Source: a virus. From it: DNA of 25,377 nt. Location of the stretch: IMG/VR virus record IMGVR_UViG_3300030110_001224, positions 1 through 25,377 of that record. One strand, 5' to 3'. The position numbers were made by a program, and so were the translations under genes. The notes beneath the pieces are model-generated. The model made no database searches. It was given only the letters and a program-made list of their open reading frames with translations, and was not told the DNA's origin. Positions 3,734 to 24,799 of the stretch are shown here, piece by piece; the first letter of the stretch is position 1, and each line of letters begins with the position of its first letter.

Positions 3734-3734
3734 T

Positions 3735-4039: not shown

Positions 4040-4233
4040 TGGCTAAAGAAGGATTAAGAAAATGGTTTTCTCGCAATCAAGGTAAAGGTTGGGTAGATTG
4101 TAAAACTGGAAAACCATGTGGAAGACGTAAAGGTGAAAAACGAAAATCATACCCAGCTTGTAGACCTACAATGGCTCAATGTACTTCTGCAATGAAAAAG
4201 AAAACGAGTAGTAAACGAATAAGTTGGAAATAG
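4039..4233 (+). CDS. 64-residue basic Cys protein (DUF5872-like)
   Basis: The sequence opens GLRKWFSRNQGKGWVDCKTG, then KPCGRRKGEKRKSYPACRP. The L-x-x-W-F ... G-W-V-D ... P-C-G-R ... Y-P-x-C-x-P arrangement matches a small protein family common in marine phages that I associate, with some uncertainty, with DUF5872. Cysteines at about 21, 27, 41 and 48 could form a metal site. It is coupled to the upstream gene by TAATG. Its stop TAG is part of the AGGAG Shine-Dalgarno of the next gene. The function is unknown. Confidence 0.65.
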   Translation: MAKEGLRKWFSRNQGKGWVDCKTGKPCGRRKGEKRKSYPACRPTMAQCTSAMKKKTSSKRISWK

Positions 4234-4242
4234 GAGTATATT

Positions 4243-4497
4243 ATGAAAAAAGGTAAAAAAGGTAAACGATGTGGCAGAGGTAAATTACCAGATGGTAAAG
4301 GTGGATGTCGTAAAATGACACGAAATGAATTAAGATATTTAGGTGATAAAACAGTATTAGGAGCAATAGCACCAAGTATGGCTACTATATATAAAGCTGG
4401 TCCTAAAGCAGCTGCTGTAGCAGGCGCTGTAGGTGCTTATAGAGCTGGTAAAAAAGCTAAGAAAAAAATGAGTAACTATTACAGAAAGAAAAAATAA
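4243..4497 (+). CDS. 84-residue basic protein with small hydrophobic core
   Basis: The N-terminus is almost all Lys/Gly with a C-G-R-G-K-x-P-D-G-K-G-G-C loop at residues 10-22, which could be a small metal or disulphide knot. Residues about 38-66 are Ala/Gly-rich and weakly hydrophobic (VLGAIAPSMATIYKAGPKAA, then AVAGAVGAY), possibly membrane-interacting. The C-terminus is again Lys-rich. The AGGAG at 4232-4236, overlapping the previous stop, stands 6 bases before the ATG, the best canonical SD in this stretch. The gene ends in TAATG overlap. Family not recognised; a DNA- or membrane-contacting minor virion protein is conceivable. Confidence 0.6.
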   Translation: MKKGKKGKRCGRGKLPDGKGGCRKMTRNELRYLGDKTVLGAIAPSMATIYKAGPKAAAVAGAVGAYRAGKKAKKKMSNYYRKKK

Positions 4498-4781
4498 TGT
4501 CTGACGTTATAGGATTAGCAGATGTATCTAGTAAAGATACAGGTCGTGGTAGTTCTTTAAAAACTGGAGGCATGCGCAGAACATATAATAAAAGGAGAAA
4601 AAAGATGCCAAGTGCAATGAAATGTAAAAGTGGATGGAAAAAGATGGGATACAAAAGCATGAGTGATTGTATGTCATATGGTAAGAAAAAAGTTGGTGAC
4701 TTAGACAAAGATGGCAAGATGTCTTCTTACGAAAGTAAAAGGTCAGCAGCTATACAAAAAGCAATGAAAGGTAGGAAGTAA
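4497..4781 (+). CDS. Basic protein with EF-hand loop; likely internal start at 4605
   Basis: 94 residues from the TAATG-coupled ATG at 4497, or 58 residues from an internal ATG at 4605 with an excellent AGGAG seven bases upstream. The 58-residue part opens MPSAMKCKSGWKKMGYKSMS and is clearly paralogous to the start of the next gene, which begins exactly at the equivalent Met; this argues that 4605 is the ancestral start. It then has a perfect 12-residue EF-hand calcium loop, DLDKDGKMSSYE (ligand positions D1, D3, D5, G6, hydrophobic 8, S9, E12), and a basic helix (SKRSAAIQKAMKGRK). The 36-residue extension is unrelated to the paralogue. Both forms may be made. Function unknown; a calcium-stabilised virion accessory is one idea. 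Confidence 0.65.
   Translation: MSDVIGLADVSSKDTGRGSSLKTGGMRRTYNKRRKKMPSAMKCKSGWKKMGYKSMSDCMSYGKKKVGDLDKDGKMSSYESKRSAAIQKAMKGRK
4593..4597 (+). promoter_or_regulatory. Internal Shine-Dalgarno AGGAG before ATG 4605
   Basis: AGGAG with a seven-base A-rich spacer to ATG 4605, inside the longer reading frame that begins at 4497. It is a stronger ribosome site than that at 4497, which relies on stop/start coupling. Together with the paralogue alignment it supports 4605 as a real, perhaps the main, start. Confidence 0.6.
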
Positions 4782-4867
4782 TGCCAAGTAAAGCAAAGTG
4801 CAAAGTAGGTTGGAAAGCTATGGGTTATAAATCCATGTCCGATTGTGCAAGTTATGGTAAAAAGAAA
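4605..4867 (+). repeat. Tandem gene duplication, two diverged copies of about 87 bp
   Basis: Bases 4605-4691 and 4781-4867 encode the same 29-residue pattern, M-P-S-x-x-K-C-K-x-G-W-K-x-M-G-Y-K-S-M-S-D-C-x-S-Y-G-K-K-K. The DNA is still alignable without gaps but differs at many codon positions, so the duplication is not recent. After the shared part the two proteins differ completely: an EF-hand plus basic helix in the first, a charged Lys/Glu/Arg helix in the second. Confidence 0.75.
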
Positions 4868-4987
4868 ATGACTCAAAAACCAGATACTAGTGTTAAAGAA
4901 GAAGGTGCTAAAAGAGGAAAAGATAGAGCTATAGCTGCTAACTCAAGAATGAAAAAACGATTAGCTAAAGAACGTAGTAGTTACTAA
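4781..4987 (+). CDS. Basic protein, paralogue of the preceding EF-hand protein
   Basis: 68 residues. Residues 1-29 (MPSKAKCKVGWKAMGYKSMS, then DCASYGKKK) repeat the module of the upstream gene, including both cysteines and the G-Y-K-S-M-S-D-C core. The second half is a highly charged helix (EEGAKRGKDRAIAANSRMKK and on) without an EF-hand. It starts and ends with one-base stop/start overlaps. Two proteins sharing a head and differing in the tail suggest that the shared Cys module docks to a common partner. The role is not known. Confidence 0.65.
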   Translation: MPSKAKCKVGWKAMGYKSMSDCASYGKKKMTQKPDTSVKEEGAKRGKDRAIAANSRMKKRLAKERSSY

Positions 4988-8386: not shown

Positions 8387-9780
8387 TGGGATTAACTAGA
8401 GAAGAACGACAATTACTACATCAAAAGTCTAAACAACCTACATTTGGTAGTGGTAAACCTGATAGCAATCAAGGTAATGAAGGTGACATAGCATATAGGC
8501 AAGTAGAAGATTCTGGATTAGTTCAGTATGTAAAACAGAATGGAAGTTGGGTAGCAGTAGGCTCACAAGGTGATATGCCTGAAACTAGAGATGTAACTAG
8601 GACTGTATCTAGTGGTGGTGGTGTAGGTTCTCATAATCATGGTGAGTTTATTAAAAAAGATGGTAGTGTTGCATATACAGGAAATCAATCATTTGGAACT
8701 AATAATATAACTAATGTAGGTACTTTAGATGTAGATGGAGCAACTACTTTAGATAGAGTTACAATTGATACTGCTGATGGTGCTTTTGCAGTTAGTGGAG
8801 CAAATCCTATAAATCTTACTACAACTGGAACTAATAAAATTACTTTAACATCAGGAAATGATATAGATATTGCACCAACAGGTGATTTAGATATTGATGC
8901 TAATAATATAACTGTAGATACTTTAAGACAATATACTGGAAGTATAACAGGAGATTATGTTTTACAAGGTGCATCAAATATGACTACACAAGCAACTGGT
9001 AATGCTGCTAATACATTGTTAATTCAAAACACAAATCAACACGTTTCTTCATTTACAGGAATAAATATTAAAACAGATTCAGGTGGAGCTGCTAATGTTT
9101 TTAATAATATAGTAATTAATTGTGATAACGTAGCAACTAAAGGTAGCGATTATGGTGTTACAATTAGAAGTGAGAATGGAATAGTTATAGAAGCTGCTGA
9201 TGCAAATGCGGCTGATAATCCTACTCAAATAAAAATGGTAGCAAATGGTGGAATAGATATTGGAGTAGATACTACATTAACACCAGCCTCAACAAGTCCA
9301 CAAGTAAGAACTTTAGTTCATGGAAGATTTGAAATACAAACACTATATAAAGAAAGTGGTTCAATAAATTGTTCTACTCATAGTGTTAAGTTTGACCAAT
9401 TAGATACTCAAAAGTTAATGAGAAACTTTACTTATGTAGCTGAAGGCACATTAAGTGCTAATGGTTATTTAGAGATAGTTAGTGCAGCTAATGATGATAA
9501 TATTAATGGAACTGTATGGTTAGTAACTGTTGCTTTTAATAATGGAACAAAAGAAGGGTTAAGTGTTGGATATTGTTTCAGAATGAATGCAACTTTAATA
9601 GACCCAGTAGATATGTCAAATAATTATGTAGTTCATTATTATCAAGATGGTGGAACTTTTGGAGCAATTACATGGGATGCTAGTAATGGCATAAGGTATC
9701 AAAATTTAATATCTGGTTCAGTTGATGTAACTTATAAAGCATCTGCTCAACGAATACAAAGTGGAAATGATTTCTCATAA
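8386..9780 (+). CDS. Tail fibre / receptor-contact appendage protein
   Basis: 464 residues, ATG in TAATG overlap. Residues about 32-60 (GDIAYRQVEDSGLVQYVKQN, GSWVAVG) form the short beta motif that often starts marine phage fibres. An H-x-H at 83-85 (GSHNHGEF) may bind metal along a trimer axis. From about 90 to 180 there are triple-beta-helix-like repeats of the form N-V-G-T-L-D-V-D-G-A-T-T-L and D-I-x-x-T-G-D-L-D-I-D-A-N. The C-terminal 150 residues form a separate beta domain with two or three Cys, probably the tip. It follows the nozzle-like gene directly, as fibres do in podovirus tail blocks. The host-range role is inferred from family knowledge. Confidence 0.72.
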   Translation: MGLTREERQLLHQKSKQPTFGSGKPDSNQGNEGDIAYRQVEDSGLVQYVKQNGSWVAVGSQGDMPETRDVTRTVSSGGGVGSHNHGEFIKKDGSVAYTGNQSFGTNNITNVGTLDVDGATTLDRVTIDTADGAFAVSGANPINLTTTGTNKITLTSGNDIDIAPTGDLDIDANNITVDTLRQYTGSITGDYVLQGASNMTTQATGNAANTLLIQNTNQHVSSFTGINIKTDSGGAANVFNNIVINCDNVATKGSDYGVTIRSENGIVIEAADANAADNPTQIKMVANGGIDIGVDTTLTPASTSPQVRTLVHGRFEIQTLYKESGSINCSTHSVKFDQLDTQKLMRNFTYVAEGTLSANGYLEIVSAANDDNINGTVWLVTVAFNNGTKEGLSVGYCFRMNATLIDPVDMSNNYVVHYYQDGGTFGAITWDASNGIRYQNLISGSVDVTYKASAQRIQSGNDFS

Positions 9781-9840: not shown

Positions 9841-10992
9841 ATGGCAACAGCAAAGCAAATAAAATCAGCGATTAGGTCTCAATCATCTGCTCAAAGAGGT
9901 GTCACTCAACAATTAGCAGGAGTTGAAAGTTTATTACAACAAGCTGACTTTTCATCTAAAATGTCAGATATAAAAAATAAACAAAGAGAAACAATGTTTG
10001 CTACAGCCGCTTCTGGATTAGAATTAGCATCTACATTTGGAGAAGGATTAAAACAAAAAGCAGAATTAGAATCTAACATAAAAGCATTTGAAGAATCATT
10101 ACCTGAAGCAGTTCGTAAAGCAGGTGGTGTAAGTGTTATGAAAAATCCTAACAAAGCATCATTTATGGATGTATTAAAAGGTGAGGGTTCTTTAAGTTCT
10201 TTCTTGTATGATGAAAAAGAACAATATATGTTAGGTGAGAATGTATTAGGTAGTAAATACGATGTAGCTGCTATGGGAGAAAAAGCAAAAGCATTAGAAC
10301 AAACAGATTTATTAGATAGATTTATGCAAGGAGAACCTTTAGATAGTAAGTCTCCAACATTAGAATTAGAAGCAAGTCCTACTCTTAGTAAAAGTTTTAA
10401 AAGTATATATGGTAAAGAAACAGATATAGAATCATTACAAGATAGTGTAGATAAACCTTTAATTAAAGAAGATACTACAACTAAAACAAGTGATTCTGAA
10501 ATAATTGTTGATAGTGAAACAGGAAGTCCTTTAGAACCAAACTATACTATAGGTCCATTAGCTCCAGAATTGATTGAAAATAATAATTTATCAAGTTTCT
10601 TATTAGGTGGAGAAATAGGGGATTATTCAATGTCTCAACCAATACAAGAACCTGTTGAATCAATATCAGAAAGATATGCTAAAGCTGATTTTAAGAATAC
10701 TAAAGAAACTAGAAAAATATCAGCAGATGTTTTATCTGATAAAATTAAAGATTTAAAAATAGCAAGAGAAAATTTAAAAGGACTTCCTAAATATGATAAA
10801 CGCAATAAAAGAAAATTTTCATCTTTAGTATCTAAAAGAGAAGAACAATTAAAAGATTTATTATCTAAAGTTTATAATCCAGAATTAGATGTATTTTTTG
10901 GTGATGATTTTAAGGGAGTAAATTTAAGAAGTCGATTAAAACTTGAAGATAAAGATTCAATTAATTTTATTAAAGATTTTGTAAAAAGGTAA
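9841..10992 (+). CDS. Putative internal virion (ejection) protein, 383 residues
   Basis: Not recognisable as a named family. The N-terminal 90 residues are helical and Gln/Ala/Ser-rich (SSAQRGVTQQLAGVESLLQQ), the middle (about 165-280) is Ser/Thr/Pro/Glu-rich and probably disordered, and the C-terminal part (about 290-345) is Lys/Glu-rich coiled coil (ISADVLSDKIKDLKIAREN). No signal peptide or membrane segment. No Shine-Dalgarno is seen before the ATG. It opens the row of helix-rich genes leading to the giant protein, the position occupied by internal core or ejection proteins in T7-like and related phages. The function is inferred from context alone. Confidence 0.5.
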   Translation: MATAKQIKSAIRSQSSAQRGVTQQLAGVESLLQQADFSSKMSDIKNKQRETMFATAASGLELASTFGEGLKQKAELESNIKAFEESLPEAVRKAGGVSVMKNPNKASFMDVLKGEGSLSSFLYDEKEQYMLGENVLGSKYDVAAMGEKAKALEQTDLLDRFMQGEPLDSKSPTLELEASPTLSKSFKSIYGKETDIESLQDSVDKPLIKEDTTTKTSDSEIIVDSETGSPLEPNYTIGPLAPELIENNNLSSFLLGGEIGDYSMSQPIQEPVESISERYAKADFKNTKETRKISADVLSDKIKDLKIARENLKGLPKYDKRNKRKFSSLVSKREEQLKDLLSKVYNPELDVFFGDDFKGVNLRSRLKLEDKDSINFIKDFVKR

Positions 10993-10998
10993 TATAAT

Positions 10999-11499
10999 AT
11001 GTATATAGCAGCAGCAATGGCAGGATTAAGTTTATTAGAATCAATAAGTGGAACTTCAGCAACTAGAAAACAAGCAAAAACTCAATCAGATTATTTTAAA
11101 AAAGCAAGTCTTGAAATGGGAAAAGCTGAAGATGCATTTAATCAATCTCTTAATCCTAGTCTACAATCAGCAGTATTAGAAGGAAGAAGAACTTCAGATA
11201 TAGTTTCTAGTAGTGGGCAACAAAATATTATGCAAGCTAGAAAACAACAAGATGCTATAAGTAAAGCAAGTGGATTTGCTAGTATGTCTATGGATAATGA
11301 TATGATTAAAAATGTTAGAAGCGCATATACTACTAAACTAGAAGATATAGACATTGGATTAACAAAAAATTTAGGAGATATATTATCAGACTTTGAAAAA
11401 ACAAAATTTGAAATGAAATCTCAAAGAGAACAAATAGATATGCAGAAAAAATTAGCAGACCAACAATCTCAATCAAAATATCTAGGTATATTCGGATAA
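10999..11499 (+). CDS. Putative internal virion protein B-like, 166 residues
   Basis: Short hydrophobic N-terminus (MYIAAAMAGLSLLESISG) followed by an all-helical, Gln/Lys/Ser-rich body (ATRKQAKTQSDYFKKASLEM to QREQIDMQKKLADQQSQSK) and a short hydrophobic end (YLGIFG). Size, position and texture resemble the gp14-type internal core proteins of T7-like phages, which form part of the periplasm-spanning ejection tube, but no diagnostic motif is visible. The start is preceded by AAGGTAATATAAT, a weak SD with AT-rich spacer, six bases after the previous stop. The ejection role is inference. Confidence 0.5.
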   Translation: MYIAAAMAGLSLLESISGTSATRKQAKTQSDYFKKASLEMGKAEDAFNQSLNPSLQSAVLEGRRTSDIVSSSGQQNIMQARKQQDAISKASGFASMSMDNDMIKNVRSAYTTKLEDIDIGLTKNLGDILSDFEKTKFEMKSQREQIDMQKKLADQQSQSKYLGIFG

Positions 11500-11503
11500 T
11501 ATT

Positions 11504-12535
11504 ATGTCACAAGCATTACAATCATTAAACTCATTATTAAAGTATAAACAAGAAAGAGAACGTCAAAAGATTGACAAATCTTTATCTATGATGGATATGG
11601 CTACAAGATTAAGACAACAACAATTAGAGAATACTAGACAGAATCAAATAATGCAAATGAGAGTAAAACAAGAAAATAGAGAATCTCAATTATTTAGTAA
11701 ACAATTAGAATCTGCTGAACTTGCTTTAGAAAAAGAAAGAAGAGAATCCACTCCAGAATATATTGGAATTGCAAAAAGAAAACTAGAAGCTGAAGCTAAA
11801 AATGCTGAATTAATTGCTGAAACAAGATATAATACTATTAAAGAAACAGAATTAGATAATTTAACAGCTGCTATAAAATTAAAAAGTGTAAACAATAAAC
11901 AAGATATTGTAGATGATTTTAAAAGAAATGTAGGAATGAATGCATTATTTAGAGCAACTAGAGATTATACAATTGATGGAGAATTTGAAGGTAGTGATAT
12001 ACAAGAAGTAAAAGAAAATATTTCAAGGCACGCCAAAGATAAAAAACAAGCAAAGTTTCTTGGTAAAATAGTAGAACAATATCCAGGCCTTATAACAGGA
12101 ATAGCTTCATATCAAATGTTAGTAAATAAAGGAGAAAGGTCTGAGCAATCATTTCAACCATTATTTGAATCTATGAATAGATTGTATGATGATTTATCAA
12201 CTAAAAAAGATTTAGTAACAAGTTTTCAAAATGAACTTGGTGTTTCTTTAAATAATTTAGATATGAACAATATTGCATTAATGAGAAATCAATCTTTTGA
12301 CCAATCATTTGAATCTGGAGCATTAGATTCTCAAATATTAGACATTGTAAATAAAAATTTAAAAAACAAAGGTCAAGATAAAAATGCTTTACGAAATCAA
12401 TTAATGATGCAATCTTTATCTAAAATAGGAATGATACCTTCAGAACAAGAATTAAATGCTATAAATGAACAAAGAGCATCAGAAGGTAAATCACCCCTTA
12501 CATTAGAAGATTATACAGAAAAATTTGATAATTAA
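11504..12535 (+). CDS. Coiled-coil internal virion protein, 343 residues
   Basis: Residues about 10-130 are a long, highly charged, Gln/Glu/Arg-rich coiled coil (LLKYKQERERQKIDKSLSMM, and QLESAELALEKERRES). The rest is helical with a few hydrophobic clusters (LGKIVEQYPGLITGIASYQM). No enzymatic motif is seen. It lies between the 166-residue protein and the giant protein with four- and six-base AT-only gaps, and neither junction has a clear SD. A gp15-like ejection-tube role is suggested by order and helical character only. Confidence 0.5.
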   Translation: MSQALQSLNSLLKYKQERERQKIDKSLSMMDMATRLRQQQLENTRQNQIMQMRVKQENRESQLFSKQLESAELALEKERRESTPEYIGIAKRKLEAEAKNAELIAETRYNTIKETELDNLTAAIKLKSVNNKQDIVDDFKRNVGMNALFRATRDYTIDGEFEGSDIQEVKENISRHAKDKKQAKFLGKIVEQYPGLITGIASYQMLVNKGERSEQSFQPLFESMNRLYDDLSTKKDLVTSFQNELGVSLNNLDMNNIALMRNQSFDQSFESGALDSQILDIVNKNLKNKGQDKNALRNQLMMQSLSKIGMIPSEQELNAINEQRASEGKSPLTLEDYTEKFDN

Positions 12536-12541: not shown

Positions 12542-15500
12542 ATGCCTACTCAAGAAGCTATAGAAGCTCTATTAAAACTTAGAAAAGAGCAACAACAAAA
12601 CTCCACAGAACCTTTTGCATTAACTGGAAATAGATTAGGCGATTCTCCTCTTCGTAGAATAACAGGAGAAACTGAACAAGAAACTGAAGATAGAGTTGAA
12701 AAAGACAAAGTATCTTTATTTAAATCAGTAGGTGCAGGTCTTTATGAGTTTGGTGAGTCTGCATCATTTGGATTATTAGGTCTTGCAGAAATAGGAGCAG
12801 AAAAAGCATTAGGAGAAGAGATAGAGTTTCAAGAATATTTTAGAGAAGCTCAAGAACAAAGTAGTTTAGCAGCTATATTAGGTGGAGTGGGAACAGGAGC
12901 AGGTTATTTACTGGGAGCTCCTATGAAGATTACTGGTAAATTATTACAAAAGCCTGCTACTGCATTAATAGCTAAAGCAACTAAAGGACAAACAATTGGT
13001 AAAGCATCTGCTCAAATAAATAAAGCAGCTGTTAAAAGTGGTATAGAACAAAAAGTAGCAAATGAATTTAGTGACGTTGTTGTTGGTTCTACTATTTCTG
13101 CTACTGCTAAAAATAAACTCGCTAATGATGCATTTAGAAATACTACAACTGGTTTTACAGCAAACATAAATAAAAGTTTAAATAGAAAGTTAGCTCAAAA
13201 ACAAATAACTCAAAAACAATATGATGCAGTCACAGAGATGGCTGAACAAGTTGCTACAAGAGGTATACCATTACAAAACATATCTCAATTTGCTAGAACT
13301 AAATATGGTAATACTAGGTTTGGTAGGTTTGCTACAGAAGCATTGCATGATGCATTTGTATTTTCAGTTGCTGATGCAGTTATGGATGCTTCATTCCAAT
13401 CACAACAAATGTTAAAAGGTGACCAAGAAGAATTTAATTTAGGTCAAGTTGGTTATTCAATGGTAACAGGATTGTTAGCAGGTACAGCTATTAACGCATC
13501 TACTTCTTTCTTTAAACCATTGGGTAAAATGTTAAACTCAAGAAAAGATTTTGGACAAGGCTTAAGAGCGTACTTAATGACTAGAGGTATGTATAAAGAT
13601 GCAAGTGTAAGAGAAGTTGTTAATAGTATGGTAGATGTTGCTAATAACAATAAAAAGAACTTATCAGCAGACCAATTAAAATTAAGAACTAGTTTTGAAT
13701 ACACATTAGATGGAAAAAAGAAAACTAAAGATTTATTATTATCTGAAAATTTAAGTCACAAAGCAAATGTAAATAGAATTACTTCTGAATTAATAGATGA
13801 ACTTGGAGAAAAAGAAGCAAAAACTAAATCATTAAATTGGTTAATGGCAAACAAAAAAATATACGCTAAAGAAATGATGGGTGAAGCAACTAGAGAAGGA
13901 TTGCAAAACTATAGATTAATATTTCCTAGAATGTTAGTAGCTGGAGCAGCAATGGGTGGTACTCAAGCAATACAGGGATATGCTACAGGAAATGAATTAA
14001 GAGCTGAAGATTATATATCTAGTATGTTAATAGGTGCTTGGACACAACGTAGAGGTAACTTTGCAAGAGATGTAGATTTAGGTAATAGAGTAAAAGAACT
14101 TAGGTCTACGTTAGAATTTATGGGTGTAAAAACAGAACACACTGCATTTGGTTCTACATTTTCTAAGAATAGTAATATGTTTGGTGTTGGCCTTGCAAGA
14201 GACAATCAAAGACTTACTGATTATTTAAAAGAAGAAAGATTAGTTAGTGATGAAGATGAAAGTATTCAAGGAGATAAACTAGCAGAAGATGAAAAAGTAT
14301 TTTATGAAGATGTAGGTGGTAATCCTATTGACCCTTATAATGGTAGAATGGATTATGTGTATGAATTAATAGAACAAGATTTTCAATATACAAAACCTAA
14401 AGACCAAATATCTGACACTCAAGCTAATGAAATAATAAATATTTTAGAAAAGCAAGGATTTAAAACATTAGATGATTTTGATAAAGCATATGATGATAGA
14501 GTAGGTGAATCTACAGAATCAATGGAAAGCACTATTGTTAGTGTTCTTAAAAATATTAAAAGTTCTAATTTTGATGAATTAAAAGATTTAACAATTGATA
14601 GTGATAGTGGAAAATTATCTATTCCAAATATTGATGTAGATGATTCATTATATAATAGAGCAAGAAATGGCGAGTTTAAAGAATGGCTTTCAAATAAAGA
14701 TGGAGAAAAAGCAGTAGAGGAATTAAAAGAATCATTAAGAAGTTTAAATGCTGTAATTCAAGTAACTGATGGATTATCATTATCGGAAATGGCAAACAAA
14801 ACAAATTCAATTAAAACATCAGAAACATTAAAAGGATTATATAACACTATAAGAGATTCTGAAAAAGCAATACATAATGTTGTTAGTCCTAAAGACAATA
14901 GAGCAGAATTTAGATTTAAAGATGTTCATTCTTACTTAATGCCTTTAATACAAAATAGAGGTAAACGATTTACAAAAAATCTTATGTCAAATCTAGAAAA
15001 AGATAACATGAGTGATGGATTAAAGAATGTATTATATGAAACTGGCATACTTCAAAAATCTGAAGATGGTGAATTTAGATTAATAGATGATGTATATAAA
15101 ATAAAAGTAGATGAAGAATATAAAACAAAATTTGATGATTTAACTAAATTGCAAAACATATTAGTATCATTAGGAGATTTTAAATTAACAAAAAAATCAA
15201 CTGGTAGAAATGTAGAAGCTGGTAGTATTAAAAAATTAAAAGGGGCATTAAGAGATATAGGTATTGACTTAGATGAATTTAATAATCCTAAAATGAAGTT
15301 TTTATATCAAATGGTTTTAAATGATATAAGCACAAAAAGATTAAACAATTCTATTGCATCAACTGCTGATATAGATTTTATTATACAACAATCAGGTAAT
15401 GCATTGTTTAGTGAACCGGGCCTTATAACAGATGGTGGATTTAGAGGATTTACATTAAAGAAAGTAGACATACCTCATAATAGAGATTTTCAAAATGAAT

Positions 15501-18500
15501 ACAATGGTAAGTTAGAAAAATTAAAAGAAGAATCTGGTGTTGTTAATATACTAGAAGATAAAGTTGTTGTATTAAATGAAATACAAAGCAATCAATTAGA
15601 AAGTATGTTTGATATTGTATATAATGCTCCAACTGTAGGAGAAAACGTAGGATTTAGAGATTTATATGAAACATTAACAAACAGCAAATTAGATAGAGTT
15701 AAAGATAGATTAATATCTTATATGCAAACTTTTGGTCGTAAAGGCGAAATTGAAATGTTATCTTTATTAAAAAGACAAGGTATTATAAATAGAAATGCTG
15801 ACGGAACATTAGAAGTAGATAATAAATTTACACTTGAAAAAATTAAAAATGAAATTGGTGAACCTAAGACTGAAGAAGAATTACAAAAATTTATAGGAGA
15901 GCAAAACAAATTAAAAGAAGAGTTAATTAAAGCAATACAACCTGTAAAAGATGCTTTAGATGGTAAGGGTATTAATAATGAGTATATAGAAAAAGAAATA
16001 AAAGCTAGGCAAGAATTAAACAGAAGGTATGTATCTCAAGCAAAAGATGAAGAAAAAAATCCTAGTCTTGGTATTGATGAATTTTTTAGAAAGTATAAAT
16101 TTTTTGTTGAAGTAACGCCTGGAGAGGGAGACTTTAATGATTATAGTAATCAAAGTTCTGAATGGAAAAATGAATTTTTTAAAGACCAAAGGTATTTATT
16201 AGATGATTTAGGAAATTTGTCACCTGATAGTATTACTAGAATACAAAATGACATTGTTAAAGATAATAAAAAATTTAAAGATTTAGATTCAGATGATAAA
16301 GAAATAGTATTACAAGATATTACTCAAGTAGTAAGAGGAATTATTAGAAAGAATGTAGTTAAAAAAGTTTCAATTATAAATGGTAAGATAGTAACTGACG
16401 ATATTGGTTCTAAAGAAGTAATGCAAAAGAATCCTGTGTTTGATTATTTAGATTCATTAGGAATGGATTATGCTATATTTGATAACAATGTAACGTATAC
16501 AGAGTTTGGTAGATTTATTACTGAAAAAACTTATAATATATTAAGTACAGAAGGATTAGGTGCTAAAGAAAAAATTCATGTTCAAGGATTAAGAGAAGAT
16601 GTAAAAAATCAATTAAGTCAAAGTTTAGTAAGTAAAAATATAAGTGCATTGTCAAGAAGTGATGTTGCAGTATCTGATGGTAGTTCAAAACATGGTATGC
16701 TTAAGATGGATATATATGATGGAATGGATAGTATAGTTATTGATAAAGCAGGTATGCAAAATATTGCTCAAGATTTTTTAAGGTTTTATAAAAAACACAT
16801 TAAAAGTATTACTGAACCATCTACTAAAAGTCAAATGAATAGATTAAAAAAAGCATTTGAAAGCACAAAAGATGAGTTTGATTATAAAGATGCAGATATA
16901 GAATCAGCAACAAGATTTTTAATATCAGAAGTTGCATTTAAAAGTGATAAAAATGATTTGTTTTATAAAGTATTAAATGAAACAAACCCTATGGAAGTAG
17001 ACAAGTATATTAAAAGAATGAAACTTGCTACAACTAAAAACTTTATTAGGTCTGATAAAACATTTCATCAATCTATTATTAATGCAAGAAATGAATTAGG
17101 ATTAAATAAAGACATTACTCAAATACTTCAAGATAGAATTACAAAATATAATAGTAAATACAGAGTTGCTGTGTGGGATGATGAAGGTACTGAAAGTATG
17201 AGAACTGTTATTGATGATACTATTAATGAATTTAAAGACCAATATCCAGAAATAAATAAAGCTAGCACTAAAAGTATTGTTGAGCAAGCGCATCAAAAAG
17301 TATCTGCATTTGATAGTATATCGTTTTTATCTAAAGAAGCTATAACAGAAATGCATACAATTATGGGGCATGACCCTGATTCTAAAAACCCTATAAAGCC
17401 TGTTATATCATCGCAAGGAGAGGGAAAAACATTATTGTATGGTAAGACATTGTTTATACATAGTCCTGCTTTAGATGGTTTCTTTAAAAAGAATCGTGTA
17501 GATATATTACTTACTGGTTCTGGAGCAAAAGCATATGATGGTGGTAAAGAAACAATAATTGAAGGTGTACGATGGGATGAATTATCAAACTATGAAATAT
17601 CTAAAAAATATCAACCTTCAGATATTATAAGAAAAATAGATTTAGATGCTATAGGATTAAAACCTGAAAAAGATGCTAGTTTATTATCAGCTAGTGAATC
17701 AGATGCTGATTATAATTATATGGATAGGTCTGAACATCAAAGAGCATTCCAAGAATTAAATGCTGAATTAAGTTACAATTTAGAACAAATGGCAAATATT
17801 ATGGGTGACCCTTACAGAATGAGAACATTCATGTTAGAGCAACTTAATAAAGGTAATATACCAGAAGATGCAGAAGATGGAGCATTAAAAAACTTAAGTA
17901 ATATGATATACTATCTTCAATTAAATGAATCTGCGAACCCAATGGATTATAGTTCTGCTCAAGTTCAAAAGTATTTATCGAAAGTATATATAGATAATAT
18001 ATTTAGCAATAGAAGGTCATTAGTTAATAATACATATAAAGATGTTCCATCAGAAGCATTTAGGTATGGTGGTCAAGCAGCTATAGTACAAACTGGAACT
18101 GCTAATTTAGGTAAAGGAAAGAAAACTAGATTGCTTCCTACGTTTTTTAATGCAGATAATAAAATGATTCTTCGTGGACAGATTATGTTACCTGATAAAG
18201 AAAGAACAACTACTTTATCTGGATTAGGTGTTAAAAAAATAAGAATAGTTTCTAATGAAAGAATACTAACATTAGAAGAATTTAAAAATGAATTAGTAGA
18301 AAAATTAAATGATGATAGTAATGATTTTAAAGAACAAATAGATGAGATTCAAAATTTAACAATTGAATCTGCTCACAAAATAATACAAAACTTAGCGAGT
18401 AGAACAGATACGAGATATGAATTAGGAATAGTATCAAGAAGAAATCCAAGAACAAGACCTAATGATATTACTTTACTGGGATTAAAAGGGTTTTTACATA

Positions 18501-21211
18501 AAGATACTGGATTAGCAGTAGAGATAAATAGTTTTGATGTTGCTAACATATATGAAGGTGACTATGATGCAGATAAAGTAGATTATTTCTTTGCTCATAG
18601 TGATTATATGTTTGATTATATTAAAAGAAGTCAATCTCATTTTGTTCAACAAATTGACCCTGATGGATTACAAATGAAACCTGATTTTACATTTGGTATG
18701 GAATCTAGTTTAGCAAGTCAATCTATAGTATCTAAAATGGGTAATGCTATTGCATTTAAAAAGGGAATAGGTATTGTTCAAAAGACTCATAGAAAACTTA
18801 ATTATGTACAAAATCTTACTAATAGAAACCATTTACTAAATGTAAAAGACAATGATTTAAAAAATGTAAAAAAAGAATGGAAAAATATTGTAAGAAAAAA
18901 TGCTAATGGAGACCTTGTAGGACCTGGAGTTTTATATGAAACACCTGATGGTGAAATAATTACAATGGATAGTGAATCACTTTCTTTCTTTCAAAGAGCT
19001 GCTTTAGAAGTTCAATACATTGTAGATGGTTCAGATAGACTTAATCCTAATATTGCAAATAGTATATACGAATGGACAAATAACTTTTTATTTCCAGATG
19101 CAGAAAATTCTATGTCTGCTTCGCAAGCTGATGCTAAAACTTTAGAAGAAATATTAGCAAAAGGAAGAGATGCAGATAATAAAAGAATAAGGATTTTTGA
19201 TAAGTATAAAAAAAATGATGATGGTGAATATGAACTTGTAGAAACTGGAGTAAATGAAGCAGATAAATTAATCATTAAAGAATTTTTAAATCAACAGAAT
19301 AAATTGTTAGCTTCTTTTGGTGACCAAAAATATGAAGGTGGACAAAGTAGGAAAACAAGTTTTTATGATATGGCAGTTGGTAGTAAAGTATTTAAAGACT
19401 TTCATCAAGATATATATAAATCATTAAATCAACATTTATTTAAAGGTTCTTGGAAAGCAAAAGATTTAGATGAAGCTGATAGAGCTTACTTAGATAATAT
19501 ATTAGATGCTAAAAAAGATGCTTTTAAATCAACAAAGAAAAATATAACAAATATATTTAAGGGAGAAGGTGGTAATTATTTAGATAGAATTGCTGTCAAA
19601 ATAGCAGATAGTAATTTTTTAGATAATAAAAAAGAATATCATTTAACTACTTCTAAACATCAAGTAATGGATGCTTGGTTCAATAAGTTATTATCTATAG
19701 AACCTAATGAAATAAAAGAAGTAGATGGTAAATTAGTTTCAGATGCTGATGCAATGCCACAAGATGAATTAGAAAAATTTAAATCAGATTTAGATGATGT
19801 ATCAGGAAAAATTGTAGGTCAAACTAAAAAGTTTAATAGTGTTATAGCATCAATAAAAAGATTAGATAAAAATAAAAAATATATTAGAAGAAGTCATTAC
19901 CCTGATGGATGGAAAAGAAAAAAAGTTGCTAGTATTGATTGGGTTATAAATAAACTACAAAATGACTTACAAGAAAAATATGATATACCAAAAAATAAAT
20001 TACATCCTAAAGATTTAGCATATAAAAAATATGTATCTATAGAATCAAATAGCGATTTAAGGTCAAGTGTTATTCATGCTAATAGTATGCATGCTTTATT
20101 AAGAGGTCAAAATGCTATGATGTATGATAGTTGGTATGACACATTAGGAGATGAAGCTAGAAAAGATATGAAGACACTTACTGATTTTAATAGATTAGAA
20201 TATGGTAAGGGAACTGTAATAGATGAAGTTCTTGCTTATAAAGAAAATCAAATAGTAGTTGATAGCAAAATGATAGATTTTATAAATAATTATAGACCTA
20301 ACATTTCTAATGTAATGGAATTAAGGAATCAATATCTTTTAAAAATGATTGAAAAGCATAAATTAAATTTTCTTTATGCATATATGGAACCTAGAAAAAA
20401 TAAAGATGATATAGGTGTATTTAATAATAGACCTATTGCAATACCATATAAAGAAACTGCTAGATATAAACAAGGAATACAATTACTAACTAGTTTAGCA
20501 AAAGGAAATGATACATTTGAAAAGAATCAATCTAATATAGAAGAATCTAGAAGAGCATCAGAGTTTGCATTAAAAACTATATTAGAAGGTAATGAGCATT
20601 ATAGAAGATTCTTTGATAAGGATGTTAGCTTAATGGATTTAACTAATTCTAATATGGAGATATTTGGATTAATGCCTTTTGATAAAAAAACAAGACAAAG
20701 ATTAAATCAAGATGGTTCAGATTTTAATTGGACATCAACAATGTTGCCACATAATCCTATGTCTACTATTAATAAATCCGTTATATCTTTATATACTGAA
20801 TATGCTAGTATGATGTCAGGTAAAAATAAAGAAGAGTACGCAGATTTTTTACAAAGACTTAATGATATAGAAGAATTTTCTTCAAGAAAAGATTATTTAA
20901 ATCCATCTAAATATATGCATTTAAGAATGTCATTAGACCAAGATTTTATGGATATGCTTACAAAAGATATATATAATATAGCAGGAGATGATAGCACACC
21001 AGAAAACATAAAAAACAATCCTATGTATGCTCATATGAAATATTTAAAGTATGAACCAAAACAAGTAAAATCTAGGAGTAAAGTTGTAAATATGTTAAAA
21101 TCTGTTACCGAAGCAAACAATGTACTTAACACAGCCGCAAGACAAAATCCTATGAAGGATAGTGGGTTTGAAGTATTTAATACTATGGGTGAATATTTAA
21201 AATGCAAGTAA
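12542..21211 (+). CDS. Giant virion protein with RNA polymerase-like double-psi barrel signature
   Basis: 2889 residues, the largest gene here. Residues 60-130 contain Gly/Ala-rich amphipathic stretches (GLLGLAEIGAEKALG, AAILGGVGTGAGYLLGAPMK), with more around 300-320 and 464-500, suggesting a membrane-active, ejected N-terminus. Residues about 500-1600 are mixed helical and charged. Residues 1966-1978 read RRNPRTRPNDITL and 2007-2011 read DYDAD, matching the N-P-x3-P-x-D-I ... D-x-D-G-D catalytic signature of RNAi-type/YonO/crAss-like RNA polymerases, with Ala for Gly. Residues 1653-1663 (VDILLTGSGAK) may carry the partner barrel's lysine. Known two-barrel phage polymerases such as phi14:2 gp66 are virion-packaged giants. 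I infer a virion RNA polymerase or a relative. It has no SD, an AT-only leader, and overlaps the next gene by 10 bases. Confidence 0.6.
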   Translation: MPTQEAIEALLKLRKEQQQNSTEPFALTGNRLGDSPLRRITGETEQETEDRVEKDKVSLFKSVGAGLYEFGESASFGLLGLAEIGAEKALGEEIEFQEYFREAQEQSSLAAILGGVGTGAGYLLGAPMKITGKLLQKPATALIAKATKGQTIGKASAQINKAAVKSGIEQKVANEFSDVVVGSTISATAKNKLANDAFRNTTTGFTANINKSLNRKLAQKQITQKQYDAVTEMAEQVATRGIPLQNISQFARTKYGNTRFGRFATEALHDAFVFSVADAVMDASFQSQQMLKGDQEEFNLGQVGYSMVTGLLAGTAINASTSFFKPLGKMLNSRKDFGQGLRAYLMTRGMYKDASVREVVNSMVDVANNNKKNLSADQLKLRTSFEYTLDGKKKTKDLLLSENLSHKANVNRITSELIDELGEKEAKTKSLNWLMANKKIYAKEMMGEATREGLQNYRLIFPRMLVAGAAMGGTQAIQGYATGNELRAEDYISSMLIGAWTQRRGNFARDVDLGNRVKELRSTLEFMGVKTEHTAFGSTFSKNSNMFGVGLARDNQRLTDYLKEERLVSDEDESIQGDKLAEDEKVFYEDVGGNPIDPYNGRMDYVYELIEQDFQYTKPKDQISDTQANEIINILEKQGFKTLDDFDKAYDDRVGESTESMESTIVSVLKNIKSSNFDELKDLTIDSDSGKLSIPNIDVDDSLYNRARNGEFKEWLSNKDGEKAVEELKESLRSLNAVIQVTDGLSLSEMANKTNSIKTSETLKGLYNTIRDSEKAIHNVVSPKDNRAEFRFKDVHSYLMPLIQNRGKRFTKNLMSNLEKDNMSDGLKNVLYETGILQKSEDGEFRLIDDVYKIKVDEEYKTKFDDLTKLQNILVSLGDFKLTKKSTGRNVEAGSIKKLKGALRDIGIDLDEFNNPKMKFLYQMVLNDISTKRLNNSIASTADIDFIIQQSGNALFSEPGLITDGGFRGFTLKKVDIPHNRDFQNEYNGKLEKLKEESGVVNILEDKVVVLNEIQSNQLESMFDIVYNAPTVGENVGFRDLYETLTNSKLDRVKDRLISYMQTFGRKGEIEMLSLLKRQGIINRNADGTLEVDNKFTLEKIKNEIGEPKTEEELQKFIGEQNKLKEELIKAIQPVKDALDGKGINNEYIEKEIKARQELNRRYVSQAKDEEKNPSLGIDEFFRKYKFFVEVTPGEGDFNDYSNQSSEWKNEFFKDQRYLLDDLGNLSPDSITRIQNDIVKDNKKFKDLDSDDKEIVLQDITQVVRGIIRKNVVKKVSIINGKIVTDDIGSKEVMQKNPVFDYLDSLGMDYAIFDNNVTYTEFGRFITEKTYNILSTEGLGAKEKIHVQGLREDVKNQLSQSLVSKNISALSRSDVAVSDGSSKHGMLKMDIYDGMDSIVIDKAGMQNIAQDFLRFYKKHIKSITEPSTKSQMNRLKKAFESTKDEFDYKDADIESATRFLISEVAFKSDKNDLFYKVLNETNPMEVDKYIKRMKLATTKNFIRSDKTFHQSIINARNELGLNKDITQILQDRITKYNSKYRVAVWDDEGTESMRTVIDDTINEFKDQYPEINKASTKSIVEQAHQKVSAFDSISFLSKEAITEMHTIMGHDPDSKNPIKPVISSQGEGKTLLYGKTLFIHSPALDGFFKKNRVDILLTGSGAKAYDGGKETIIEGVRWDELSNYEISKKYQPSDIIRKIDLDAIGLKPEKDASLLSASESDADYNYMDRSEHQRAFQELNAELSYNLEQMANIMGDPYRMRTFMLEQLNKGNIPEDAEDGALKNLSNMIYYLQLNESANPMDYSSAQVQKYLSKVYIDNIFSNRRSLVNNTYKDVPSEAFRYGGQAAIVQTGTANLGKGKKTRLLPTFFNADNKMILRGQIMLPDKERTTTLSGLGVKKIRIVSNERILTLEEFKNELVEKLNDDSNDFKEQIDEIQNLTIESAHKIIQNLASRTDTRYELGIVSRRNPRTRPNDITLLGLKGFLHKDTGLAVEINSFDVANIYEGDYDADKVDYFFAHSDYMFDYIKRSQSHFVQQIDPDGLQMKPDFTFGMESSLASQSIVSKMGNAIAFKKGIGIVQKTHRKLNYVQNLTNRNHLLNVKDNDLKNVKKEWKNIVRKNANGDLVGPGVLYETPDGEIITMDSESLSFFQRAALEVQYIVDGSDRLNPNIANSIYEWTNNFLFPDAENSMSASQADAKTLEEILAKGRDADNKRIRIFDKYKKNDDGEYELVETGVNEADKLIIKEFLNQQNKLLASFGDQKYEGGQSRKTSFYDMAVGSKVFKDFHQDIYKSLNQHLFKGSWKAKDLDEADRAYLDNILDAKKDAFKSTKKNITNIFKGEGGNYLDRIAVKIADSNFLDNKKEYHLTTSKHQVMDAWFNKLLSIEPNEIKEVDGKLVSDADAMPQDELEKFKSDLDDVSGKIVGQTKKFNSVIASIKRLDKNKKYIRRSHYPDGWKRKKVASIDWVINKLQNDLQEKYDIPKNKLHPKDLAYKKYVSIESNSDLRSSVIHANSMHALLRGQNAMMYDSWYDTLGDEARKDMKTLTDFNRLEYGKGTVIDEVLAYKENQIVVDSKMIDFINNYRPNISNVMELRNQYLLKMIEKHKLNFLYAYMEPRKNKDDIGVFNNRPIAIPYKETARYKQGIQLLTSLAKGNDTFEKNQSNIEESRRASEFALKTILEGNEHYRRFFDKDVSLMDLTNSNMEIFGLMPFDKKTRQRLNQDGSDFNWTSTMLPHNPMSTINKSVISLYTEYASMMSGKNKEEYADFLQRLNDIEEFSSRKDYLNPSKYMHLRMSLDQDFMDMLTKDIYNIAGDDSTPENIKNNPMYAHMKYLKYEPKQVKSRSKVVNMLKSVTEANNVLNTAARQNPMKDSGFEVFNTMGEYLKCK
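17399..17539 (+). other. Candidate first (beta-type) double-psi barrel segment, Lys motif
   Basis: Encodes residues about 1620-1666 of the giant protein: GEGKTLLYGKTLFIHSPALD, a Lys/Arg turn, then V-D-I-L-L-T-G-S-G-A-K-A-Y. The alternation of strands and the terminal (V)D-x(2-3)-x-S-x-x-K pattern recall the lysine-bearing barrel of two-barrel RNA polymerases, and it lies N-terminal of the D-x-D-x-D barrel as in those enzymes. K1663 is the main candidate, with K1629 and K1635 as alternatives. This is weaker than the D-x-D-x-D evidence. Confidence 0.4.
18437..18592 (+). other. Candidate second (beta-prime-type) double-psi barrel: RNP and DYDAD
   Basis: Encodes residues 1966-2017. R1967-N1968-P1969 then P1973-x-D1975-I1976 is followed by GLAVEINSFDVANIY and D2007-Y-D2009-A-D2011. 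In cellular beta-prime the corresponding elements are N-R-A-P and N-A-D-F-D-G-D about 35 residues later; in eukaryotic RNAi polymerases N-P-C-L-H-P-G-D-I and D-x-D-G-D. Spacing here is 40 residues from R1967 to D2007. The three Asp would chelate the catalytic magnesium. Confidence 0.62.
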
Positions 21212-24054
21212 GTTGTGATAATATAAATAATAAAAAAGCAATTAGATTGTGGAAAAACATTAGCAAATGGGCTGATAGTAGTATTGTAAATAAAAATATA
21301 CAAGCTCCATATCAAGCTGCTATGTCTATGTTTGAATCAAGATTTCATATACCAATGGATTATGCAGTATTATTAAGTGATGCTCAAGGTGGTGCTTTTC
21401 TTACCAGAGGAAACATTAATGCTTTTGTAAAAGATTTATATGATTATGCTAATAGAGTTAATAGTGGAAAGTTTAGTGAGTTTGAAGTTGCTGAAGGATT
21501 TATGACAGGAACTGTACTTGGTAAAAGAGACCCTGTTCTTGCTGAAAGTATTAAATCATTAAGAAAAGTTGTTGATAGTGATAAAAAAAGAAGTAACGAT
21601 TTAAACAATAAATTTAAAAAAGTTATAGACAACATACGAGGTTCTGGTGAAGTTGGTGGGTTTTTTAGTAATGCAAGATTAAATAAATCATTACGTAAAC
21701 ATAGAGAACTAGAATTAGATTATATAAAAGCATTAGATACTGGTAATGAAACAGATATAAATGAAAAGTATAAAGCATTGCAAACATTTGAAAGAAAAGG
21801 TTCTGTTAAATCTTTTACAGAATTTATACAAATAGTAGAAAAAGGAATGCCTCAAGTTATTATGTCTAAATATAATGCTGAAGTAGAATTAGCAAAGACA
21901 GATAAAAAAGCAGCTGAAAGAGTAAAAGAATATGATGAAGGTACAAAGTTAGTAAAACTAACTGATGATGAATCTCAAAAATATTTTTCAGAGTTAGGAT
22001 TACCAAGTGATATTACTCAAGCATTGAGAGATTATAATTCTTTAATGTCAGAGTCGTATGAAATTTTAAGAAAAGGTATAGATGAAAAAATTAATATACA
22101 TATTAAACAAATAGAAAATAGAAAAGGTTTTTCATTAACTGTAGATAAATTAAATACTTTAAAAGAAAAAATGCGTTCTGAATTAATGCCTAAATATAAA
22201 GAAGATGGTTACTTCCCTCACTTTACTAGACAACTTAATGCTAAGATGATGGATAATATGATGAAACATTTCGATGATTTAGATAATGCTAACCTTGATA
22301 TGAAGCATGATAGTCCTAGCATAGATAAGATTATTGATAATATAACATCTGCAATACCTAGTTATGCTAAGTCTAGAGACGATACTAACTTAGATTATAG
22401 TATGAATTTTGTTGATGTAGTTTCAACATATATTAATGATGTAAATAAATTTAATACTCAGGTATTTATAAAAAGCAACTTAATTGATTCTTTATCAAAA
22501 GCAAAAAGTATGTACAATACAGAAAATGAATATTCTGCTAAAATTGTTGATATGGTAAATAGTCTTTATGGTTCTGTAAATGGTCAGGTAAAAGATTCTG
22601 GTTCTATGCATGAGCTTAAAAAAATATTATTGTCTTATCAATTTACAAATAAATTAGGGTTTAGTGTAAGGTCTGCGGCTAGAAATGCTACTCAGTATTT
22701 AATGAATTATGCCACCTTTGGGTTTTCAGCTGTACGAGAATCAAAAGATTATTTAGCACAAAATAAAACTAGTGATATACTTGGTGGAGATTTAGATGAT
22801 TTTCTTAGAAGAGAAAACTTATTTATGGAAACGTCTGAAGCATTAATAGAATCAGGTATAAAAGCAGAAAACAAAACTCCATTTAAATTAAGACGCATGG
22901 ATGAAAATGGTAATATAGTGTATGCTGATGAGGAAAGTTTTGCTTATAAAGGAATGAAACAATTTGCAACTGGAATGAGTGGAGCTGCTAGAATAAGTTC
23001 TAAAATGCATAGAGCAGTAGAGAATGCTAATAGAAAACTAACTGCTGAAATAGCATTTGCTCAAGTACATAAAATAATGAATAAAAGTGATAGATTTGAT
23101 GCTTATATATCAAAACAAGCTGAAGAAAAAGGCGTAACTAAAACATCATTAAGAAGAAAGTTAGCTAAGACATATGCAAAGAATATGGTAATACTTAATC
23201 ACTTTGATTATGAATCATATGCTAAAGCTAAAAATATGAGAGAAGGTATTGGTCAATTTATGTTTCAGTTCCAACATTATGGAATGGAGTTTCTTGAAAG
23301 AAACTATTCTATATATAAAGAGGCTAAAGGTGACTTATCTGCTTTAGGTGAAGATAAATTTTCTAATTGGTTAAAAGATGCTAGGGGTGTACATAAAATG
23401 ATGAATGTATCAACAGCATACTTTTTAGCACCCGCTCTTATAAGTTATATATCAGGATATAATCAAACACTTGTTGAACACACTGGTAAAGAAATACTAG
23501 AAGATTTATATAATGTATTATTTACTGATTATGATGACCCAGAAGCATTAAAAAAATTAAATAAAGAATTTTATGGTAAAGGTATAGTTGGTTCTAAACT
23601 CGGTCCTACTTTTGGAACTATCTTTGATATAGGTATTGCAACAGAATTAATTAATGCTGATAGTGAATACTTAGATAATATACTTTTAACTGCTGGAGAT
23701 TTTGGTTTAGCAAATAAAGATTTAAATTCAAGTGATATGATGGGTCAGTATTTAAGAATTGTAAATCAAATGTTAGGTAGAACATATGATAGATATGTAC
23801 CAATGACAGTTAAGAGTCCTTATGGTATAGGTTCAGCTGCTATGCAAGAAATGACTATATATCCTACTAACAAGGAACAAGGTTCTTTATATAGAGATAT
23901 GTTAGAATCACCTTTAAAAGAAAATAAATACACAAAAAGTTATTATTTTAATAAATTGGAAAAACAAAGTAGGTCTAAGAAAAAGAAACTTTCTGGATTA
24001 CCTATTGATGTTCAAAATGCTTTAAGAGAATTAGAACGAGCAGGTAAAAAGTAA
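21202..24054 (+). CDS. Large internal virion (ejection) protein, 950 residues
   Basis: Starts 10 bases inside the giant gene. Mostly helical. Notable elements are GYFPHFTRQLNAKM near residue 336, a long segment DYSMNFVDVVSTYINDVNKF near 395-415, LGFSVRSAARNATQYLMNYA near 485-505, MFQFQHYGMEFLERNY near 686-702, and a hydrophobic helix STAYFLAPALISYISGY near 734-752. A Y-x-P-H element, an L-G-x-x-x-R/P-x-x-x-N-x-T/Q segment and a late F-x-F-Q-x-Y segment recur, in my memory, in the C-terminal parts of giant phage virion proteins, so this may be the split-off C-terminal portion of the polymerase-type virion protein. It is the last + strand gene and ends in a hairpin. An ejection role is inferred; no enzymatic motif is seen. 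Confidence 0.55.
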   Translation: MQVSCDNINNKKAIRLWKNISKWADSSIVNKNIQAPYQAAMSMFESRFHIPMDYAVLLSDAQGGAFLTRGNINAFVKDLYDYANRVNSGKFSEFEVAEGFMTGTVLGKRDPVLAESIKSLRKVVDSDKKRSNDLNNKFKKVIDNIRGSGEVGGFFSNARLNKSLRKHRELELDYIKALDTGNETDINEKYKALQTFERKGSVKSFTEFIQIVEKGMPQVIMSKYNAEVELAKTDKKAAERVKEYDEGTKLVKLTDDESQKYFSELGLPSDITQALRDYNSLMSESYEILRKGIDEKINIHIKQIENRKGFSLTVDKLNTLKEKMRSELMPKYKEDGYFPHFTRQLNAKMMDNMMKHFDDLDNANLDMKHDSPSIDKIIDNITSAIPSYAKSRDDTNLDYSMNFVDVVSTYINDVNKFNTQVFIKSNLIDSLSKAKSMYNTENEYSAKIVDMVNSLYGSVNGQVKDSGSMHELKKILLSYQFTNKLGFSVRSAARNATQYLMNYATFGFSAVRESKDYLAQNKTSDILGGDLDDFLRRENLFMETSEALIESGIKAENKTPFKLRRMDENGNIVYADEESFAYKGMKQFATGMSGAARISSKMHRAVENANRKLTAEIAFAQVHKIMNKSDRFDAYISKQAEEKGVTKTSLRRKLAKTYAKNMVILNHFDYESYAKAKNMREGIGQFMFQFQHYGMEFLERNYSIYKEAKGDLSALGEDKFSNWLKDARGVHKMMNVSTAYFLAPALISYISGYNQTLVEHTGKEILEDLYNVLFTDYDDPEALKKLNKEFYGKGIVGSKLGPTFGTIFDIGIATELINADSEYLDNILLTAGDFGLANKDLNSSDMMGQYLRIVNQMLGRTYDRYVPMTVKSPYGIGSAAMQEMTIYPTNKEQGSLYRDMLESPLKENKYTKSYYFNKLEKQSRSKKKKLSGLPIDVQNALRELERAGKK

Positions 24055-24092: not shown

Positions 24093-24278
24093 AACTTTTT
24101 CTTCTTTAGTTGCTTGTAATATTCCTACTAAACAATCAGTAGCAATAGAAAATTGTTTTAGTATTTGTATTAATGTATCAATATCTCCTTTTTCAGTTGC
24201 TACACCAATAGCCATTTTAATATTATTCATAGTTTCTATATATGAATCAAAATCTTTGGTATGTTCTTGTAATATCAT
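24084..24278 (-). CDS. 64-residue helical protein of unknown function
   Basis: Starts in ATGA overlap with the resolvase stop (ATG at 24276-24278 on the - strand) and ends in TAG 29 bases from the convergent 950-residue gene. The product is predicted helical and mildly acidic (YIETMNNIKMAIGVATEKGD, then I-D-T-L-I-Q-I-L-K-Q-F) with one Cys and a moderately hydrophobic C-terminal helix. No family recognised. Coupling to the resolvase suggests that it belongs to the replication/recombination operon, for example as a small accessory or host-takeover protein, without further evidence. Confidence 0.6.
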   Translation of the reverse strand: MILQEHTKDFDSYIETMNNIKMAIGVATEKGDIDTLIQILKQFSIATDCLVGILQATKEEKVSA

Positions 24279-24799
24279 TTATTATCTCTCTTTCTTAAAC
24301 TAGTTAATGTATCTACTTTTTGTTTTAAACTCATGTTATCTATTGCACTTTGTATAACTCCAAACATTCCTATAAGAACAGCATCAGCAGTATGCAATGT
24401 TACTCTTTTATTTAGTTCTTGCTTATCAATAACTTTTTGTGCAATAGTTTTTAACTTTCTTTTTCTACTTACTTTATCTTTTGGTAACTCTAGTGATTTC
24501 ATCCAGACTTGTGGAGCAATCAACTTAGTTTCTATCTTATTAGCTCCCAACAGACCTAACCAAATCCCATAGTTAGTACCGAATTTAAACACACTGCTAC
24601 GACCATCACTTGGGAATGCGTGTACTTGTTCAATGTATGCAGTAATTGGAATGGTACTTTCCCATGTCATTCTGTATGGTTCTAATAATTCTGCCATCTC
24701 TTCAATTGTTTTTGGGCATTTATACATTTCAATTATTCTATCTCCATTAATAAATACTATACCTCCGCTTTTACCCGGGTCTATACCTATTGTAATCAT
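24275..24799 (-). CDS. RuvC-like Holliday junction resolvase
   Basis: 174 residues with the RNase H-fold catalytic pattern of RuvC. GIDPGKSGG (D7) is strand 1, AYIEQVHAF (E57) is strand 4, and LHTADAVLIG (H136, D139) is the final catalytic helix. The length matches phage and bacterial RuvC. Such enzymes cut four-way junctions and branched replication intermediates, making the DNA suitable for packaging. The C-terminus is Lys/Arg-rich. The start is supported by AAGGA upstream and a one-base TAATG overlap with the Cys-containing gene on the same strand. The function call is strong; the precise substrate in this phage is not shown. Confidence 0.85.
   Translation of the reverse strand: MITIGIDPGKSGGIVFINGDRIIEMYKCPKTIEEMAELLEPYRMTWESTIPITAYIEQVHAFPSDGRSSVFKFGTNYGIWLGLLGANKIETKLIAPQVWMKSLELPKDKVSRKRKLKTIAQKVIDKQELNKRVTLHTADAVLIGMFGVIQSAIDNMSLKQKVDTLTSLRKRDNK

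Follow-up and report, generated by a model that had tools for sequence, protein, structure and literature searches.

A predicted two-barrel RNA polymerase within a 2889-residue protein of a phage group outside Crassvirales

What might a phage do with a 2889-residue protein that lies among its structural genes and resembles nothing in the sequence libraries? Such a protein is encoded on the plus strand of a 25,377-base virus record, analysed over its whole length and referred to here as the window. Searches of Pfam, PHROGs and INPHARED gave no recognisable relative, tblastn found no match to it in the 50,697 phage records of INPHARED, phmmer and profile searches of PDB sequences returned nothing relevant, and hydropathy indicated no membrane segments at the cut-off used. 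The answer developed below is that the protein very probably contains a single-chain two-barrel RNA polymerase, most likely packaged in the virion and ejected, that would transcribe early genes. Its features, by window position, are as follows.

12542-21211 (+): 2889-residue protein with a central RNA polymerase module; an open reading frame whose full-length relatives are 44-98% identical over the whole protein
16346-16927 (+): possible N-terminal polymerase domain (residues 1269-1462), weakly suggested by a second AlphaFold2 model and a VIA match to RDR2 (7w88)
16889-19630 (+): predicted two-barrel RNA polymerase core, residues 1450-2363, from an AlphaFold2 model, Foldseek (6vr4, E 4.6e-8) and VIA matches
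17390-17536 (+): part of the first (beta-like) barrel, PIKP...GKTLF...SGAK (residues 1617-1665), in which K1619, K1635 and K1663 are invariant; from alignment, and where the crAss-like first-barrel segment matches best
18254-18406 (+): inter-barrel connector of variable length, residues 1905-1955, from comparison with relatives
18437-18592 (+): catalytic segment of the second (beta-prime-like) barrel, RxPRTRPND...EGDYDADKVDYFF (residues 1966-2017), from conservation and a crAss-like RNA polymerase profile match
18560-18574 (+): DYDAD, with proposed magnesium-binding Asp 2007, 2009 and 2011, invariant in 32 of 32 proteins
18704-18817 (+): predicted 38-residue helix, residues 2055-2092, which could be a bridge helix or a post-barrel clamp helix, from DSSP of the AlphaFold2 model

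A first-pass annotation of the window had read an RNA polymerase signature (RNP...PxDI...DYDAD) at 18437-18592, and translation bears this out: the plus strand there encodes RRNPRTRPNDITLLGLKGFLHKDTGLAVEINSFDVANIYEGDYDADKVDYFF, residues 1966-2017 (RRNPRTRPNDI...EGDYDADKVDYFF), with the aspartates numbered as in that annotation. The R-N-P ... P-x-D-I portion resembles the motif of the QDE-1/RDR polymerases. Scans of viral contigs recovered 26 related loci initially, a number that rose to about 60 when profiles served as queries; over these, core identity falls from 94% to 28%. Among 32 full-length proteins (that of the window and 31 relatives, with core identity down to about 28%), D2007, D2009, D2011, R1967, P1969, K1619, K1635 and K1663 are invariant. 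The protein holds only two DxDxD sites, and while all three aspartates of DYDAD at 2007 are kept in every sequence, those of DLDSD at 1247, which serves as a control, are kept in only 14, 5 and 5 of the 32, placing the motif far above chance. All 38 distinct motif contexts carry an R-x-P-x-T-[RK]-P-x-D element at constant spacing, and residues 2001-2025 form the best-conserved stretch, in which the window residue is kept in 0.77 of sequences as against mostly 0.2-0.5 elsewhere; outside the polymerase core, sequence divergence among the relatives is fast.

The first-pass annotation had let its reading depend on whether homologues retain the aspartates and the RNP, and the three aspartates and R-x-P are indeed retained throughout. 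The RNP signature itself stands in its arginine and proline, but its middle position may be N, K, F or Q. Two supposed peculiarities of the segment also lose their force. The change of glycine to alanine in DxDGD had been thought a deviation, but crAss-like enzymes have DFDID or DFDVD, and the fourth letter in the relatives' contexts is A (34), V (2), F (1) or Y (1); similarly, the missing beta-prime asparagine is missing in crAss-like enzymes too (GSDFDID). A separate observation concerns the inter-barrel connector: in loci L016 and L045, about 110 residues are inserted at protein residue ~1926, just ahead of the catalytic segment, with 98% identity over residues 1-1926 and, in L016, near-identical flanks.

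An AlphaFold2 model of residues 1450-2600, built on a 35-sequence alignment, reached a pLDDT of 78.8 and a pTM of 0.72. Strands at 1960-1967, 1975-1984 and 1992-1995 precede a helix at 1997-2002, the catalytic loop at 2007-2011 and a strand at 2013-2016; beta-beta-beta-alpha-loop-beta is the known order for the beta-prime barrel. Foldseek ranked the phi14:2 virion RNA polymerase (6vr4) first among PDB entries, followed at ranks 2-7 by QDE-1 (E 1.0e-3) and RDR2 and at ranks 8-13 by phage RNA polymerases throughout (PhiKZ, AR9 and P32, E 0.2-0.9), with N4 structures appearing only at E ~8. VIA gave its highest Z to RDR2 (15.1, 434 residues, 6.0 Å) and QDE-1 (14.6, 467 residues), then to 6vr4 (11.3, 616 residues, 5.6 Å), P32 gp64 (11.2) and P74 gp62 (10.8), and about 7 to cellular largest subunits. 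QDE-1, RDR2 and 6vr4 match the model across residues 1450-2363, that is, two barrels in one polypeptide, and the VIA matches to RDR2 and QDE-1 stop at model residues ~905-918. The viral structure library BFVD contributed many crAss-like phage proteins and two close proteins (E 9e-48 and 1e-29; A0A516...), which we take to be probably from marine metagenomic viruses. The model supports a two-barrel RNA polymerase fold for residues 1450-2363, with DxDxD predicted to lie in the second double-psi barrel; the best fold matches, phi14:2 gp66, QDE-1 and RDR2, and the expected order of elements around the motif agree with the barrel that the first-pass annotation had anticipated. A second model, covering residues 480-1480, was of low quality (pTM 0.46), and Foldseek gave no significant match for it; its best VIA row, RDR2 7w88 (model 790-983, chain 370-516), has a Z of 6.3, below the level trusted alone, and hints at the possible N-terminal domain listed above.

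The catalytic segment can also be set against that of phi14:2 gp66, which reads YRIPNQGQSSNDPLQIVGILPEAMGDTIVAYTEIPTKTGSDFDIDKMYVM. When a profile built from eight crAss-like and related proteins was compared by hhalign with the window protein's relatives, the best local alignment coincided exactly with the catalytic segment (score 31.2, E 0.041 for the whole core), a score reached by none of 200 column shuffles (best 29.5); the subregion alone gave E 0.002, hhalign probabilities were 1-14%, and global alignment was uninformative. The crAss-like first-barrel lysine segment scores best at residues 1570-1735 (17-20 versus at most 13.3 elsewhere), aligning VDILLTxSGAK with IDxxxxxSxxKVG. Because each segment finds its match, both barrels agree with the crAss-like enzymes and their order is conserved. 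Each of these matches is by itself modest, and the claim is carried by the fold.

Gene order suggests how such an enzyme might be deployed. The neighbours of the polymerase gene in the window are as follows.

9841-10992 (+): 383-residue protein, possible ejection protein by position; no family match
10999-11499 (+): 166-residue protein, possible ejection protein; Pfam T7_gp14 at E 0.33 (not significant), PHROG connector at E 0.0017
11504-12535 (+): 343-residue protein, possible ejection protein by position; directly upstream of the polymerase gene in relatives too
21202-24054 (+): 950-residue protein encoded immediately 3' of the polymerase gene, a pairing seen across the examined genomes, by gene order; no family match

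The genomes of two relatives, G001 and G002, are about 50 kb; the ends of G001 share a 588-base overlap at 94%, which makes its map near-complete and circularly permuted. Their late strand encodes TerS, TerL (phrog_38), portal (phrog_156), capsid (phrog_1328), a tail fibre and several proteins without known function, together with proteins of 424, 166 and 332 residues, the 2883-residue polymerase protein and a 950-residue protein. The opposite strand encodes a Holliday-junction resolvase, a DnaB-like helicase, a DNA methyltransferase and a Cas4-like exonuclease. A more distant relative of 48.5 kb, G003, has TerL, portal, capsid, helicase, methyltransferase and a pair of polymerase and 916-residue genes. 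The polymerase gene lies within the late structural block, opposite the early replication block. The TerL of a relative matches mostly proteobacterial phages, N4-like ones included, its portal and capsid match almost nothing, and no crAss-like terminase, portal or capsid was found among the matches listed; these comparisons and the ~50-kb genomes support the earlier placement of the phage outside the crAss-like group. No second RNA polymerase was recognised in the relatives' genomes, the T7-type test being one without a working control: PF00940 (T7/N4-like RNA polymerase) had no match, nor did any control genome give one.

Other parts of the window deserve brief mention. The minus-strand frame at 24275-24799 likely encodes a Holliday-junction resolvase (the equivalent G001 frame matches phrog_1770, E 8e-19), and the product of 179-1387 has a lectin domain of the Laminin-G/concanavalin type (Pfam E 2.9e-28) and probably belongs to a tail fibre. 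A series of small Lys/Arg-rich frames occupies 3446-4987 (for example, MSKKDACYFKVKARYKVWPSAYASGALSKCRKVG... at 3735-3878); these perhaps encode DNA-condensing virion peptides, and may resemble a known family of small basic phage proteins. The sole genome-collection match, L126 in a Flavobacteriales MAG, raised the possibility of a Bacteroidota host. Sequences are 29.8% G+C with frequent Shine-Dalgarno sites ahead of early genes, and because these sites argue against Bacteroidota, no host is assigned.

If the polymerase serves early genes, a promoter might be sought ahead of them. The early region lies beyond the window's reach and is known from relatives, where a non-coding block, ACGATAACTTGGGTATAAAC, occurs as a single copy per genome in the early region of G001 and G002, and also in G005, G008 and the distant G009. 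First spotted by eye between G001 and G002, the block was then tested by searching every viral contig for TTACRWTAACTTGGGYATWAAC; this returned 20 contigs, all related to this phage group, with one site apiece. We regard the block ACGATAACTTGGGTATWAAC as a candidate promoter of the polymerase, a lead only, put forward from sequence. An alternative to which we give even weight is that it is a host promoter, an RNA leader or a packaging or replication site: what is known of the block is its position and conservation, and Shine-Dalgarno sites follow it. Yet no sigma-70-type match was found there, and in most of the 20 contigs a ribosome-binding site follows about 10 bases after the end of the block, which is kept while the downstream genes change. 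k-mer counts upstream of early genes gave Shine-Dalgarno sites only.

Individual sites of the conserved single-copy block, written TTTTTACGATAACTTGGGTATWAAC, lie ahead of early genes at L138:5168-5189 (-), L143:16797-16813 (-) and in the 20 contigs L162-L181. Also conserved in the early region is a 76-base element with complementary ends, GCCTATCTAACGCAACAG...GGAGTCGGATGTAGGC (G001 42630-42707 (-), G002 34654-34729 (-), G005 8458-8533 (+)), near which lies a second element, TAGGCACTGTTC...AGCAGTGCCT. Both are possible structured RNAs; Rfam and tRNA scans of the early regions were empty.

The polymerase reading rests on sequence, conservation, predicted fold and gene order, from which we infer catalysis, packaging, a DNA template and an early-gene role. 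The polymerase would span from about residue 1270 or 1450 to 2363, its first barrel contributing Lys1635 and Lys1663 and its second Asp2007, Asp2009 and Asp2011, which would hold the catalytic magnesium ions. It would be produced together with the late structural proteins, packaged and, most likely, ejected before or with the DNA, the flanks 1-1270 and 2364-2889 perhaps serving packaging or ejection, after which it would transcribe the early genes on the opposite strand. The proposed role is modelled on phi14:2 and crAss001, where RNA polymerase-related proteins are virion cargo (PMC10172136), and on P23-45 gp96 (PMC10770324). Host RNA polymerase could serve the early genes instead.

It is unlikely that the enzyme is a two-barrel RNA polymerase made late to transcribe late genes and never carried in the virion, a reading encouraged by the fact that packaging is deduced from gene position and by P23-45 gp64, a non-virion two-barrel enzyme (PMC10770324). 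Against it, the gene sits within the structural block and adjoins possible ejection proteins, the protein has about 1270 extra N-terminal residues, and the crassvirus RNA polymerase proteins occur in virions as cargo (PMC10172136). More doubtful still is a different kind of two-barrel polymerase, either RNA-templated like QDE-1/RDR, to which the top VIA scores belong, or DNA-making like PolD, which shares the barrels (PMC10770324) and whose absence among the fold matches listed carries no weight against it; the best Foldseek E-value is to a DNA-dependent phage enzyme, and the context is that of a DNA phage. Least probable of all is an inactive structural or ejection protein that retains a polymerase fold. 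Giant size and rapid divergence outside the core speak for it, but nothing in the protein is better conserved than its catalytic residues, whose loss one would expect if activity had gone.

An active, virion-packaged polymerase would add to the predicted virion RNA polymerases a large family beyond Crassvirales and the Thermus phages, invisible to sequence libraries, would offer a new point of comparison between RNA interference and phage polymerases, and would suggest that small phages are able to start transcription with equipment of their own; with a concrete candidate promoter to hand, the idea can be put to a direct test in vitro. Somewhat short of an even chance, in our view, is the broader proposition that injected two-barrel RNA polymerases are not crAss-specific, that unrelated ~50-kb phages have a version of their own, deeply diverged and served by one dedicated early promoter, ACGATAACTTGGGTATWAAC, and that the enzyme type either passed between unrelated lineages of tailed phages or was ancestral to them.

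Among known systems, the N4 virion RNA polymerase is a functional analogue, a giant podovirus virion enzyme, but it has a T7-like fold. The phage multisubunit RNA polymerases (PhiKZ, AR9; the Caudovirales lineage of PMC7481178) belong to the two-barrel superfamily and give weak Foldseek matches, but their beta and beta-prime chains are separate, whereas here one reading frame carries both catalytic segments. The QDE-1/RDR eukaryotic RNAi polymerases share the fold (VIA Z 14-15); they differ in their flanking domains and in that the present protein is a phage protein without a PF05183 match (none at E 10 in five records, the control being detected in B. subtilis only). The non-virion P23-45 gp64 and P74 gp62 are alike in fold at a VIA Z of ~11, and in other two-barrel enzymes the inter-barrel connector is part of the clamp (PMC10770324). 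P23-45 gp96, a virion RNA polymerase fused to a tape measure, is a two-barrel enzyme inside a giant virion protein, as the window protein would be, but its polymerase is N-terminal rather than central, and no tape measure or long-tail genes were recognised here. Flavobacterium phage Fpv1 (KU599877.1, 34368-47573; L133), filed outside Crassvirales, encodes a 'structural protein' of ~4400 residues that matches a crAss-like virion RNA polymerase (E 1e-22) and has LDYDIDKE at the aligned place. From phi14:2 gp66 (6VR4) and the other Crassvirales enzymes the window protein differs in its lack of a tblastn match, its 2889 residues and longer N-terminal part, and its relatives' genomes, which are ~50 kb and whose terminase, portal and capsid are not of the crAss type; Crassvirales also have several RNA polymerase-associated giants, whereas here one further large protein, of 950 residues, stands alongside. 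What they share is a single polypeptide with two barrels in the same order, a first-barrel lysine segment, an R-x-P ... DxDxD-K segment whose fourth place is not glycine, and a gene that adjoins those for structural or cargo proteins.
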